64,000 nucleotides of DNA from NCBI GenBank assembly GCA_026399875.1, contig JAPLQF010000024.1:54748-118747 (forward strand). Reading direction: 5' to 3'. Shown here in pieces: positions 22,051-24,769 of this stretch. The stretch comes from Burkholderiales bacterium (GTDB lineage: Bacteria; Pseudomonadota; Gammaproteobacteria; Burkholderiales; Burkholderiaceae_E). Numbering within the stretch: the stretch's first letter is position 1; each line of letters opens with the position of its first letter. Both the position numbers and the translations under genes were made by a program. The notes under the pieces are model-generated. The model did not search any database, was not told the DNA's origin, and saw only the letters and a program-made list of their open reading frames with translations.

Positions 22051-22113
22051 AGCAAATCGATCCGTCCAGGCAAATCGATAGAGCCAGATTATCGCCAGCA
22101 TATCGAGGTTCAA

Positions 22114-22143
22114 TTGGCCGCTGTCATCTTCGGTCGATAGAAT
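22114..22143 (+). promoter_or_regulatory. Promoter of the rubrerythrin gene
   Basis: TTGGCC (22114-22119) and TAGAAT (22138-22143) are separated by 18 bases, and the ATG lies 72 bases after the -10 box. It is the best promoter-like pair in the 165-base gap between envZ and the rubrerythrin gene. I see no clear operator beside it. Confidence 0.5.
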
Positions 22144-22215
22144 CACCGAGTTCGCTGCTTCCAGCGATCACATTGCACGCACCCCGCGTTGCCAGCCCCC
22201 TATCCGGAGATCACG

Positions 22216-22635
22216 ATGCCCAAACTCAATGGCACCAAGACCCATGACAACCTCAAGGCCGCTTTCGCGGGCGAGAGCCAGGCCAACCGCCGCTACCTTT
22301 ATTTCGCAAACAAGGCTGACGTCGAAGGCCAGACCGAAGTCGCGACCCTGTTCCGCTCGACCGCCGAAGGCGAGACCGGCCATGCACACGGCCACCTCGA
22401 CTACCTCGCCGAAGTCGGCGATCCGGCCACCGACATGCCGATCGGCTCGTCGTCGAACAACCTGAAGGCAGCTGTCGCCGGCGAAACCCACGAGTACACC
22501 GACATGTACCCGGGCATGGCCAAGACCGCTCGCGACGAAGGGTTTGACGAAATCGCCGACTGGTTCGAAACGCTGGCCAAGGCTGAGCGCTCGCACGCCA
22601 ACAAGTTTGCCAAGGCGCTCGAAGCACTCGTCTGA
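22216..22635 (+). CDS. Short rubrerythrin without rubredoxin domain
   Basis: Rubrerythrins are di-iron four-helix proteins that reduce hydrogen peroxide. The 139-residue product has both ExxH half-sites of a ferritin-like bundle: Glu20, Glu53/His56, Glu90/Glu93 and Glu124/His127. It stops after the bundle, so the C-terminal rubredoxin electron-transfer domain of classic rubrerythrin is missing and electrons must come from another protein. GGAG lies six bases before the ATG at 22216. A strong terminator follows. The next two genes encode an Fe-S protein and a DUF3501 protein, a set I know from other beta- and alphaproteobacteria. Confidence 0.92.
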
Positions 22636-22681
22636 GATCGCACCGCGCCAGGCCGGGTCCACCGGCCGGCGCAGGTCGACG

Positions 22682-22709
22682 GGGGAGCTTCAGGGCTCCC
22701 CTTTTTATT
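22682..22709 (+). terminator. Rho-independent terminator after rubrerythrin
   Basis: GGGGAGC and GCTCCCC pair around a six-base loop and are followed at once by a run of five T and then ATT. It lies 47 bases after the rubrerythrin stop, so that gene can be transcribed as a single abundant mRNA, with reduced read-through into the Fe-S gene. Confidence 0.88.
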
Positions 22710-22767
22710 CAGAGTTCCGCCGTTTCATTCAGTTTCCAGTTTCCCAACCACCTCACCGACTGCCGCC

Positions 22768-24117
22768 ATGACCGTACGTGAAGGATCTCTCGAAGCGCCC
22801 ACCCGCCACCCGATCGACTGGCGCAACCCCGCGTTCTTCGACCGCGATGCAGCACTCGACGAAATGGAACGGGTGTTCGACATCTGCCACGGCTGCCGTC
22901 GATGCGTGAGCTTGTGCAATGCCTTTCCGACGCTCTTCGATCTTGTCGACGAGAGCAAGACCATGGAAGTCGACGGCGTCGATCGCGACGATTACTGGAA
23001 GGTCGTCGACCAGTGCTATCTGTGCGACGTCTGCTACATGACGAAGTGCCCCTATGTGCCGCCCCATCCCTGGAACCTCGACTTTCCGCATCTGATGCTT
23101 CGCGCCAAGGCGATCCAGTTCAAGGAAGGCACGCCCACAAAGTTTCGCGACACCTCGCTCGCTTCGACCGATCGCAACGGCAAACTCGCCGGCATTCCGG
23201 TGGTGGTCAATGCGGTGAATTCGCTGGCGCATTCCCCTGCGGTGCGCTCGATGCTCGACAGCCGGATCGGAATCCACAAAGACGCGTGGCTGCCCGAGTT
23301 CAGCTCGAAGCAGTTCAGCAAGACCGCCGTGGCATCAAGCGCGCATCCGGTGCGCGACGGCGCCAAGACACCCGGCAAAGTGGCGGTCTTTGCCACCTGC
23401 TATGTCAACTACAACGAGCCCGGCATCGGCCACGACCTGATCAAGGTGCTTGATCACAACCGGATTCCCTATGTCCTGGTTCATAAGGAAGCCTGCTGCG
23501 GCATGCCCAAACTCGAACTCGGTGACCTCGACGGCGTTGCGCAGCTCAAGGACAAGAACATCCCGAAGCTCGCTGCACTGGCGCGAGACGGCTACGCCAT
23601 CCTGGCACCGATCCCGTCATGCGGGCTGATGTTCAAACAGGAACTGCCGCTGATGTTCCCGGAAGACGCCGATGTCCAGGCGGTTCGCGGCGCGATGTTC
23701 GATCCCTTCGAGTACCTGGTCGCCCGCCACAAGGACGGCCTGCTCGAGACCGATTTCACCGATCCGCTGGGCAAAGTCTCGTATCACGTCGCCTGCCATC
23801 TGCGGGTCCAGAACGTCGGTCAGAAGACTCGCGAAATGCTGTCGATGGTTCCGCAGACCTCCGTCAACACCGTGGAGCGCTGCTCGGGTCATGCCGGAAC
23901 CTGGGGCGTGAAAAAGGAGTTCCACGAAACCGCCATGAAGATCGGCCGTCCGGTTTTCCGGCAGATGGCCGAGCATCCCGACGGCGAACCCGACTGGGTC
24001 GCCTCCGACTGCCAGCTGGCAGGCCACCACATCGAGCAGGGAATGCAGGGCAAGGCCGACGGCAAGGTTGCCCATCCGCTCACCCTTCTCAGAATGGCTT
24101 ACGGCCTGCCCGCCTGA
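22768..24117 (+). CDS. GlpC/HdrB-like Fe-S protein with CCG domains
   Basis: This protein resembles the Fe-S electron-transfer subunits GlpC and heterodisulfide reductase. The 449-residue product has two [4Fe-4S] ferredoxin motifs (Cys40, 43, 46, 50 and Cys83, 86, 89, 94). Two CCG-type domains follow: the first is canonical (HKEACCGMPKLELGDL) and the second reads CSG instead of CCG (VERCSGHAGTW). No membrane segment is seen. It follows the rubrerythrin terminator and precedes the DUF3501 gene by 67 bases. It could pass electrons to the rubredoxin-less rubrerythrin; this is inferred from context. The true electron donor and acceptor are unknown. Confidence 0.88.
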   Translation: MTVREGSLEAPTRHPIDWRNPAFFDRDAALDEMERVFDICHGCRRCVSLCNAFPTLFDLVDESKTMEVDGVDRDDYWKVVDQCYLCDVCYMTKCPYVPPHPWNLDFPHLMLRAKAIQFKEGTPTKFRDTSLASTDRNGKLAGIPVVVNAVNSLAHSPAVRSMLDSRIGIHKDAWLPEFSSKQFSKTAVASSAHPVRDGAKTPGKVAVFATCYVNYNEPGIGHDLIKVLDHNRIPYVLVHKEACCGMPKLELGDLDGVAQLKDKNIPKLAALARDGYAILAPIPSCGLMFKQELPLMFPEDADVQAVRGAMFDPFEYLVARHKDGLLETDFTDPLGKVSYHVACHLRVQNVGQKTREMLSMVPQTSVNTVERCSGHAGTWGVKKEFHETAMKIGRPVFRQMAEHPDGEPDWVASDCQLAGHHIEQGMQGKADGKVAHPLTLLRMAYGLPA

Positions 24118-24184
24118 GCCCTCATCGCCAAAGCCCTTATCGATTAACCGCTCTTACCCGAACACGACCATGACAGGAGTCACC

Positions 24185-24769
24185 ATGCCCGCCATCGCCC
24201 GCGAATCACTCATGACGCTCGAGGCCTATGCCAAGGCCCGTCCCGAATTCCGCCGCAATGTCATCGCCCACAAGAAGCGCCGCAGCATTGCGCTGGGCGA
24301 CCATGTCACCCTGCTCTTTGAGGACGAGCTGACCGTGCGCTACCAGGTGCAGGAGATGCTGCGTATCGAGAAGATCTTCGAGGAAGAAGGCATCGCCCAC
24401 GAACTCGAGTCGTACAACCCGTTGATTCCTAACGGCCGCAACCTCAAGGCGACCATGCTGATCGAGTATGAAGACGCGAGCACCCGGCGCGCCTCGCTCG
24501 GTCGTCTGAAGGGCGTCGAGCAGCGCGTGTGGCTGCAGGTCGAAGGCTCGCCGAAAGTCTGGCCGATCGCCGACGAAGACCTCGAACGCGAAAACGAAGA
24601 AAAGACCTCGGCGGTGCATTTCCTGCGCTGGGAGCTGACCGATGAAATGGCCGCAGCGCTCAAGTACGGCGTCTCGCTCTCGATGGGCGTCGATCATCCC
24701 AACTATCAGGCAAGCGTCTCGCCACTGAACGCCGAAAGCCGCGCCTCGCTCGCGGCCGATCTGGCCTAA
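24185..24769 (+). CDS. DUF3501 family protein
   Basis: The 194-residue product is a soluble, charged protein of the DUF3501 family, which has no established function. It contains [20 protein letters not shown] near the start, an [17 protein letters not shown] segment and a C-terminal SMGVDHPNY motif with conserved His. AGGAGT lies four bases before the ATG at 24185 and fixes the start. It is the third member of the rubrerythrin/CCG/DUF3501 set. The conserved [19 protein letters not shown] stretch is rich in charged residues; I see no metal-binding Cys. It converges with ispDF and overlaps it by four bases. Confidence 0.88.

Follow-up and report, generated by a model that had tools for sequence, protein, structure and literature searches.

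How does a rubrerythrin that lacks a rubredoxin domain obtain its electrons, and what do the two genes behind it contribute? The question is raised by a locus in a 64,000-nucleotide stretch of a Burkholderiales genome (contig JAPLQF010000024.1; hereafter the window), in which the genes of a rubrerythrin (RBR), an Fe-S protein (rubrerythrin-associated Fe-S protein, RFO) and a DUF3501 protein follow one another in that order on the + strand (Table 1). A first-pass annotation made from the sequence alone had named these three families on one strand, and Pfam matches bear it out. We favor reading the trio as an OxyR-induced peroxide reductase in which RFO would supply electrons and DUF3501 would partner RBR; we consider this reading, with its predicted catalysis, fairly probable.

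Table 1. Positions of features at the RBR locus, numbered from the first letter of the window.
Feature	Position	Strand	Basis or detail
OxyR-type operator, two dyads, 7-bp spacer	22078..22114	.	RBR-promoter matrix
First dyad ATAGAGCCAGATTAT	22078-22092		part of OxyR-type operator
Second dyad ATATCGAGGTTCAAT	22100-22114		part of OxyR-type operator
Candidate sigma-70 promoter TTGGCC-18-TAGAAT	22114..22143	+	9 of 12 matches; abuts second dyad
RBR-RFO-DUF3501 trio	22216-24769	+	gene order RBR, RFO, DUF3501
RBR, putative aerobic-type rubrerythrin, di-iron domain only	22216..22635	+	PF02915 E=7.4e-29
Structured RBR-RFO gap	22636..22767	+	folding vs shuffles, here and in relatives
Terminator-like hairpin	22681-22702	+	9 pairs plus T run
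RFO, rubrerythrin-associated Fe-S protein	22768..24117	+	CCG PF02754 E=4.3e-13
DUF3501 protein	24170..24769	+	PF12007 E=8.5e-74; ATG at 24170 or 24185

The three families are linked far above chance. A survey of 150 genomes from the window's order finds DUF3501 in 74, RFO in exactly those 74 and RBR in all but two of them (72), with presence defined by cut-offs chosen post hoc when the scores were already known (above 180 bits for RFO, next score 61; above 200 bits for RBR, next score 95). The trio is frequent in the order and patchy in the phylum, where 17 of 299 sampled genomes are positive and RFO adjoins DUF3501 in all 17. It is complete, in the order RBR-RFO-DUF3501, in 67 of 80 named loci, a sample that leans to close relatives because it consists of the best 80 of 585. 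The earlier annotation had placed the same trio in other proteobacteria as well and had made conserved co-occurrence its touchstone; these counts agree with it, and because the trio has been in print since 2016 (PMC5114695) we rejected a reading of it as a new module. We also considered viral carriage, and when viral contigs were scanned with the DUF3501 of the window, a query that detects close relatives only, no relative turned up. No electron donor was recognized by eye among the 20 commonest neighbor clusters within 4.5 kb of the trio; those that can be named we take to be ProB, ObgE, RppH, ProRS, L21, IspD/F and OmpR, all housekeeping. Several of these 20 cluster rows are antisense frames.

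RBR itself is a protein of 139 residues that has, besides its rubrerythrin match, a partial ferritin match; the domain search found no rubredoxin domain in it, and it contains no cysteine. Its di-iron ligands, which by analogy with sulerythrin we expect to be E20, E53, H56, E90, E93, E124 and H127, each show a conservation of 97% or more across 71 sequences that include the window's (here and below, conservation was counted on sequences with at least 90% query coverage and, for RBR and others, a score of more than 150 bits). The closest solved chains are 9ONM, 4DI0 and 8FUH, followed by sulerythrin, whose sequence matches the window's RBR at E=5.6e-53. Judged by this match and by gene content, namely a rubredoxin-free di-iron RBR with a co-localized GlpC-related, CCG-type RFO and a co-localized DUF3501, the locus belongs to the aerobic-type rubrerythrin system, of which we identify it as a betaproteobacterial copy.

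RFO, with 449 residues, carries the two four-cysteine [4Fe-4S]-type motifs that had been noted at first (C40/43/46/50 and C83/86/89/94). The two CCG-type domains ascribed to it alongside did not both hold up: Pfam matches one only (residues 205-290; CCG1 cysteines C211, C243-C244 and C285), and the second site is altered to C343, C372-S-G-H375 and C415, with the final CxxC cysteine absent. Among distant RFOs, the 13 of 13 tabulated have S at 373 and A or G at 418, and neither they nor the window's protein show the CC-G plus CxxC of an HdrB-type second motif, whereas HdrB aligned to RFO has CCG and CxxC at this very position. The best NCBIfam model is GlpC, at 222.3 bits below its cut-off of 278, and a second GlpC equivalog model also falls below threshold (157.4 vs 279.9 bits), which places RFO outside the curated GlpC equivalog. 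In a model of a fused relative, the predicted RFO fold resembles LutA (Z 23.4; the LutA entry is an integrative model), EtfD (Z 20.7) and HdrB (Z 18.6), a modeled likeness that counts toward a carrier role. The H. pylori protein 3KWL matches the same model at Z 16.3 and 8% identity. It could also be that RFO, together with DUF3501, is an enzyme whose CCG sites work on a substrate such as a thiol or disulfide, and that RBR shields the oxygen-sensitive clusters of RFO: in Hdr, clusters of the CCG type carry out catalysis (PMC13083937, available in part), and all 15 RFO cysteines are invariant in 95 sequences, window included. However, the second site lacks two of GlpC's five cysteines, and RBR and DUF3501 are retained without RFO both in Thermoproteales (according to the available part of PMC5114695) and in Methyloversatilis (L110, top RFO match 37 bits). 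We hold this enzymatic role to be quite improbable. The second choice of the first-pass annotation, an undescribed redox reaction, loses support as far as a disulfide-type reaction is concerned: the two missing cysteines are present in GlpC and have aligned counterparts in HdrB.

OxyR recognizes two ATAG-N7-CTAT-like dyads spaced 22 bp apart in the promoter. The dyad pair ahead of RBR in the window agrees with this consensus and spacing. Scored with a matrix trained on all 71 RBR promoters, the window's among them, the pair reaches a joint score of 12.4 and ranks first of 63,964 positions (next -2.9); with the window left out of training it scores 11.5, a value matched by 1 of 1000 shuffles. 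In the window a pair at offset 26 was likewise matched by 1 of 1000 shuffles, and the first dyad by itself scores 6.7, a weak value that 4 of 40 shuffles attain. A close relative (L035) has a near-identical pair at the 22-bp spacing. Across loci, where the dyad and offset counts are cross-validated, a held-out OxyR-type dyad of at least 10 bits is present in 47 of the 71 RBR promoters vs 2.7 in shuffles, and a second dyad lies at exactly 22 bp in 15 among 35 promoters, other offsets accounting for at most 4 each and offset 18 forming a smaller peak. With the matrix trained on all 71, a joint score of at least 12 is reached by 32 of 71 RBR promoters and by 0 of 677 regions upstream of other ORFs at the same loci. 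The 19 promoters below 9 bits by single dyad, window included, gave no convincing motif. In E. coli the RBR-promoter matrix peaks by paired score (11.7) in the oxyR-oxyS gap, a site that the single-dyad score alone ranks third, with the best singles elsewhere. The exact TTAGAYTNARTCTAA variant occurs in a single place, always before RBR, in 9 of 12 genomes chosen because their RBR promoter had TTAGAYTNARTCTAA or a near form (3 of 12 have no exact match); a Fur/PerR-type reading of this variant was dropped when the spacing of 22 bp and the match at oxyR-oxyS of E. coli came to light. The candidate sigma-70 promoter is weak alone because 1 was found vs 0.5 expected in 3 kb. The same genome encodes an OxyR homologue on contig C33 (41% identity to E. 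coli OxyR, E=2.4e-61). OxyR-like genes adjoin RBR in 5 of the best 80 of 585 loci, 4 of these 5 with weak paired scores of 4.4 to 7.1, and a dedicated OxyR paralogue may regulate RBR promoters. We propose that peroxide-activated OxyR would bind the double dyad and turn the genes on.

A strong terminator had also been placed after the first gene. The hairpin is present, but terminator-like sites are not above chance as a count (2 in 3 kb vs 2.2 in shuffles). The whole RBR-RFO gap of the window outfolds its shuffles (z -2.0 and -2.9 in two runs), and strong folding, with z below -2, is seen in 52 of 67 such gaps, window included. A terminator with a T run was set aside as a conserved gap feature, since no more than 11 of 67 gaps have one, vs 3.5 in dinucleotide shuffles (by a stricter count, 7 of 67 gaps vs 0.6% of mononucleotide shuffles). 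The hairpin after RBR would let RBR be made in quantity, and RFO and DUF3501 in smaller amounts. A structured gap is also expected if much RBR but little RFO and DUF3501 is needed for another reason: the two proteins might mature or repair the di-iron center, by inserting iron or re-reducing over-oxidized forms, and a general reductase, FNR for instance, would provide the electrons for catalysis. Such a role would suit the RBR and DUF3501 of Methyloversatilis, and it would suit ferriperoxin, for whose turnover RFO is dispensable because FNR and NADPH suffice in vitro (PMC3317640, available in part). It would suit DUF3501 as well, in which many charged residues are invariant and which has no cysteine in the window and no column above 30% cysteine in 111 aligned sequences. 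Yet eight cysteines arranged for two clusters, and CCG domains besides, make elaborate equipment for a maturation factor, and in the window's order the linkage of RFO is as strict as that of DUF3501; we regard maturation or repair as unlikely.

The model of the DUF3501 protein, with 199 residues from 24170 (pLDDT 89.8), superposes at Z 25.1 and 2.1 A over 189 residues on 3FJV, a crystal structure of the same family that was deposited without an assigned function and is 57% identical to the window's protein. The second-best match reaches a Z of only 6.7, a level that common arrangements also attain, and was discarded. A model of a natural RFO-DUF3501 fusion, of the kind present in Nitrosomonas-like genomes, gave no confident interface (pTM 0.63) and was unusable in this respect. 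The literature searched yielded no biochemistry or tested role for RFO or DUF3501.

In the reductase that we favor, di-iron RBR would reduce H2O2, and perhaps organic peroxides, to leave diferric RBR, which RFO, a GlpC/LutA/EtfD-type protein with two predicted [4Fe-4S] clusters and two CCG sites, would re-reduce in place of a rubredoxin domain. DUF3501 would be a partner tied to RBR and would most likely serve in docking or in handling the di-iron center. No electron source for RFO was seen nearby. Against this reading also stand the organisms that keep RBR and DUF3501 but have no RFO, and the turnover of ferriperoxin with FNR and NADPH. That the Fe-S protein feeds the di-iron center, as the first-pass annotation had it, is the best-supported reading; it is proposed in the available part of PMC5114695, and the OxyR-type promoter agrees with it. 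It is also possible, if doubtful, that RFO represents a distinct CCG subtype, an oxygen-tolerant and non-catalytic electron wire to an OxyR-controlled di-iron peroxidase, assisted by DUF3501 in docking or di-iron handling, with a hairpin that sets the RBR:RFO ratio and a CCG2 cluster unlike the noncubane one of HdrB. The three cysteines and the conserved H of C-S/A-G-H would then possibly hold a linear [3Fe-4S] or His-ligated cluster. Should RFO, in an aerobe, prove to hold an unusual cluster, it would be the second case, after EtfD, of oxygen-adapted Hdr-derived clusters. The promoter and cysteine results turn a gene-neighborhood guess into concrete, site-specific tests.

The nearest known system is that of Cardenas et al. 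2016 (PMC5114695, available in part), who described aerobic-type rubrerythrin together with RFO and DUF3501 and put RFO forward as the substitute for rubredoxin. The window shares the three families, their linkage and the proposed electron role of RFO with that system, and RFO-DUF3501 fusion in Nitrosomonas is common to both data sets; RBR-DUF3501 without RFO is given there for 25 organisms. The OxyR-type promoter box, the strong folding of the gap and the altered CCG2 that sets the metal-binding signature of RFO apart from GlpC go without mention in the available part of that paper and appear to be new here. The trio is also reported from some protists, with a predicted mitochondrial location (PMC7050145). 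In Sulfolobus solfataricus, RBR and its glpC-like neighbor lie in a gene cluster up-regulated by H2O2, and of the RBR protein spots one rose and two fell after H2O2 (PMC2739297, available in part). Sulerythrin of Sulfolobus and ferriperoxin of Hydrogenobacter are, like the window's RBR, rubrerythrin homologues without a rubredoxin domain; ferriperoxin, likened here by description and not by sequence, is an NADPH-FNR-dependent peroxidase required for aerobic growth, active with FNR and NADPH and not RFO (PMC3317640, in its available part). GlpC, the third subunit of the E. coli anaerobic glycerol-3-phosphate dehydrogenase, aligns with RFO at 24 to 30% identity, including all eight [4Fe-4S] cysteines and CCG1, but its CCG2 is CCG with CxxC where RFO has C-S/A-G-H with CxxA/G. 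LutA and the EtfD of mycobacteria are alike RFO in predicted fold. The CCG sites of EtfD, like those of RFO, depart from Hdr catalysis, but EtfD, unlike RFO, contains heme as well as membrane helices, and five cysteines with one histidine belong to its D2 cluster where the second site of RFO has three cysteines (PMC13083937, as far as available).

The three adjoining genes in the window, which encode an aerobic-type rubrerythrin without a rubredoxin domain (RBR), a rubrerythrin-associated GlpC-like Fe-S protein with two CCG sites (RFO) and a DUF3501 protein, are a new member of an already known module (PMC5114695). Among 150 evenly drawn Burkholderiales genomes (cut-offs: RFO >180 bits, RBR >200 bits), DUF3501 is found in 74, RFO in 74 and RBR in 72, and the sets of genomes with DUF3501 and with RFO are identical. 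Where a full RBR is missing, contig breaks are the likely cause: G126 has an RFO end alone, at a contig start, and G103 has an identical 30-residue RBR end at two sites (C66:8794-8883 and C56:29344-29433). One of these ends precedes RFO and the other DUF3501, and perhaps G103 carries two RBR copies, each heading one partner gene. A separate RFO is likewise preceded by RBR in L116, but not in L115 or L117. Among the named loci (best 80 of 585), 67 hold all three genes, 4 hold RBR and DUF3501 without RFO, 1 holds RFO without RBR, adjoining a stretch of N, and 8 extend too little upstream (of these, 5 have RFO and 3 DUF3501 only). RFO lies elsewhere in the genome for 3 of the 4 loci without it. 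No RFO was found in Methyloversatilis universalis (L110), and we take it as absent there because the best match in the genome reaches only 37 bits. In a sample of 299 Pseudomonadota genomes, DUF3501 occurs in 17 and RFO adjoins it in all 17 (14 loci plus L001, L009 and L032), a count that concerns RFO-DUF3501 only, as RBR is beyond reach in most of these short loci. Nitrosomonas-like genomes have DUF3501-RFO fusions.

The module and its neighbours (window positions)
Feature	Position	Strand	Remark
OmpR-type regulator and EnvZ/RisS-type kinase	upstream of RBR	+	same strand as RBR
RBR	22216-22635	+	Pfam Rubrerythrin, E=7.4e-29
Terminator-like hairpin	22681-22702		between RBR and RFO
RFO	22768-24117	+	Pfam CCG, E=4.3e-13
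DUF3501 gene	24170-24769	+	Pfam DUF3501, E=8.5e-74
IspD-IspF fusion, 423 aa	24766-26037	-	named by eye; downstream of and convergent with DUF3501 gene

A 15-bp palindrome near ATAG-N7-CTAT, with variants TTAG/CTAA and ATTG/CAAT, emerged from expectation-maximisation over the 200 nt preceding each of 71 RBR genes, the window's among them. In five-fold cross-validation, a site of at least 10 bits is present in 47 of the 71 held-out promoters (2.7 expected by dinucleotide shuffling) and one of at least 14 bits in 24 (0.2 expected). Around the 35 promoters with a site of at least 12 bits, and counting both sides of the primary site, a second dyad lies at a 22-bp offset 15 times and at any other offset at most 4 times; the paired score is maximal at 22, with a lesser rise at 18. 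With the matrix trained on all 71 promoters, this joint score is at least 12 in 32 RBR promoters and below 12 in 39, versus 0 of 677 regions upstream of other ORFs in the same loci; these controls are slightly poorer in AT (0.39 vs 0.48), and 0 of 163 AT-rich controls reach 12. The exact palindrome TTAGAYTNARTCTAA is a single site per genome, before RBR, in 9 of 12 genomes picked because they had an exact or near form (promoters of L047, L051, L069, L071, L076, L077, L083, L084 and L091).

An OxyR site consists of two such dyads with 7-bp spacing, and the pairs before RBR can be read as putative OxyR sites. As an independent check, the matrix from RBR promoters only was run over 3 kb of E. coli K-12, and its top two paired matches (11.7 and 10.0, the latter touching the first base of oxyR) both lie between oxyS and oxyR. 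The window pair at 22078-22114 has a joint score of 12.4, ranking first of 63,964 positions with the window in training (next, -2.9); with the window left out it scores 11.5, matched by 1 of 1000 shuffles. A close relative (L035) has a nearly identical pair scoring 14.4, and a -35-like hexamer runs from 22114 in the window. Against the OxyR reading count an offset of 26 in the window, also at 1 of 1000 shuffles, the weakness of the first window dyad by itself (equalled in 4 of 40 shuffles), joint scores of only 4.4-7.1 in 4 of 5 loci with an adjoining OxyR-like gene, and the 39 of 71 RBR promoters whose joint score falls short of 12.

Elsewhere in the window's own genome (C13, L004:380-1959), a second rubrerythrin-like gene is divergent from an adjoining OxyR-like gene, whose product has 36% identity to E. 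coli OxyR; the matrix finds no OxyR-type double dyad in the gap between them (best -1.4). Another contig (C15, L002:47-3213) encodes a 358-aa PF02915-matching protein, which from its look we take to be AcsF, near genes that we name, likewise by eye, puhB/puhC/puhE-like; together these suggest that the host is perhaps an aerobic anoxygenic phototroph.

Across 67 RBR-RFO gaps, the window's included (median 103 nt), folding has a mean z of -3.39, with z < -2 in 52 of 67, compared with equal-length controls upstream of RBR (-0.51; 9 of 66), downstream of DUF3501 (-1.22; 16 of 66) and within RFO (+0.08; 3 of 66). A T run fitting a terminator is present in just 11 of 67 gaps, versus 3.5 in shuffles, and thus the position of strong folding is conserved but the terminator form is not. 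The structure may impose a partial transcription stop or protect the RBR message. Downstream of DUF3501, a secreted-type family that we presume to be CNP1-like follows on the same strand in 25 of the 80 loci (best 80 of 585; e.g. L078:9984-10661), and L037 has a 448-aa protein similar to the window's IspD-IspF-like neighbour.

The DUF3501 model (pLDDT 89.8) has 3FJV as its sole clear structural match. Residues 134-146 are rich in conserved positions (A134, D135, E136, D137, R140, K145, T146), with 138-141 poorly ordered in the model, and this stretch is a candidate docking loop. The likelier partner of DUF3501 is RBR, not RFO, because L110 retains both RBR and DUF3501 in the absence of RFO, as do Thermoproteales according to the available part of one account (PMC5114695).

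All 15 RFO cysteines are invariant among 95 sequences, the window's included, and likewise in 13 of 13 phylum-sample sequences with 40-65% identity to it. The second CCG site reads C372-S-G-H375, closing with C415-x-x-A/G (position 418 tabulated for the 13 phylum-sample sequences and the window only); in L050, A replaces S. Unlike RFO, E. coli GlpC and HdrB (a weak profile match, E=0.00094) have CCG and CxxC at this site. In a fold comparison using the predicted model of a fused relative, RFO matches LutA (integrative model; Z 23.4, 2.1 A, 227 residues), EtfD (Z 20.7, 3.7 A, 364 residues) and HdrB (Z 18.6, 2.9 A, 237 residues). The CCG sites of EtfD, in the text available, hold one linear [3Fe-4S] and one non-catalytic noncubane cluster, according to its authors possibly an adaptation to aerobic conditions (PMC13083937); the second site of RFO is altered differently. 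We read RFO as a probable electron carrier and not as a disulfide enzyme.

As far as the available text of published trio accounts extends, we did not meet in it the regulatory and cysteine details of the window member. Titles and abstract openings among the matches listed for OxyR and rubrerythrin mention no OxyR control of the trio beyond the Sideroxydans neighbourhood, where OxyR is noted within the trio cluster (abridged source, PMC7852563). The accessible passages also describe the trio cluster in Acidihalobacter (PMC7760498) and, in some protists, all three proteins, predicted to be mitochondrial (PMC7050145). Excerpts on S. solfataricus place RBR and an adjoining glpC-like gene in a cluster whose transcripts go up with H2O2, RBR protein spots going up in 1 of 3 cases and down in 2 of 3 (PMC2739297). 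Ferriperoxin, a rubrerythrin without a rubredoxin domain, is in the portion available an NADPH-FNR-dependent peroxidase whose loss leaves no aerobic growth (PMC3317640).
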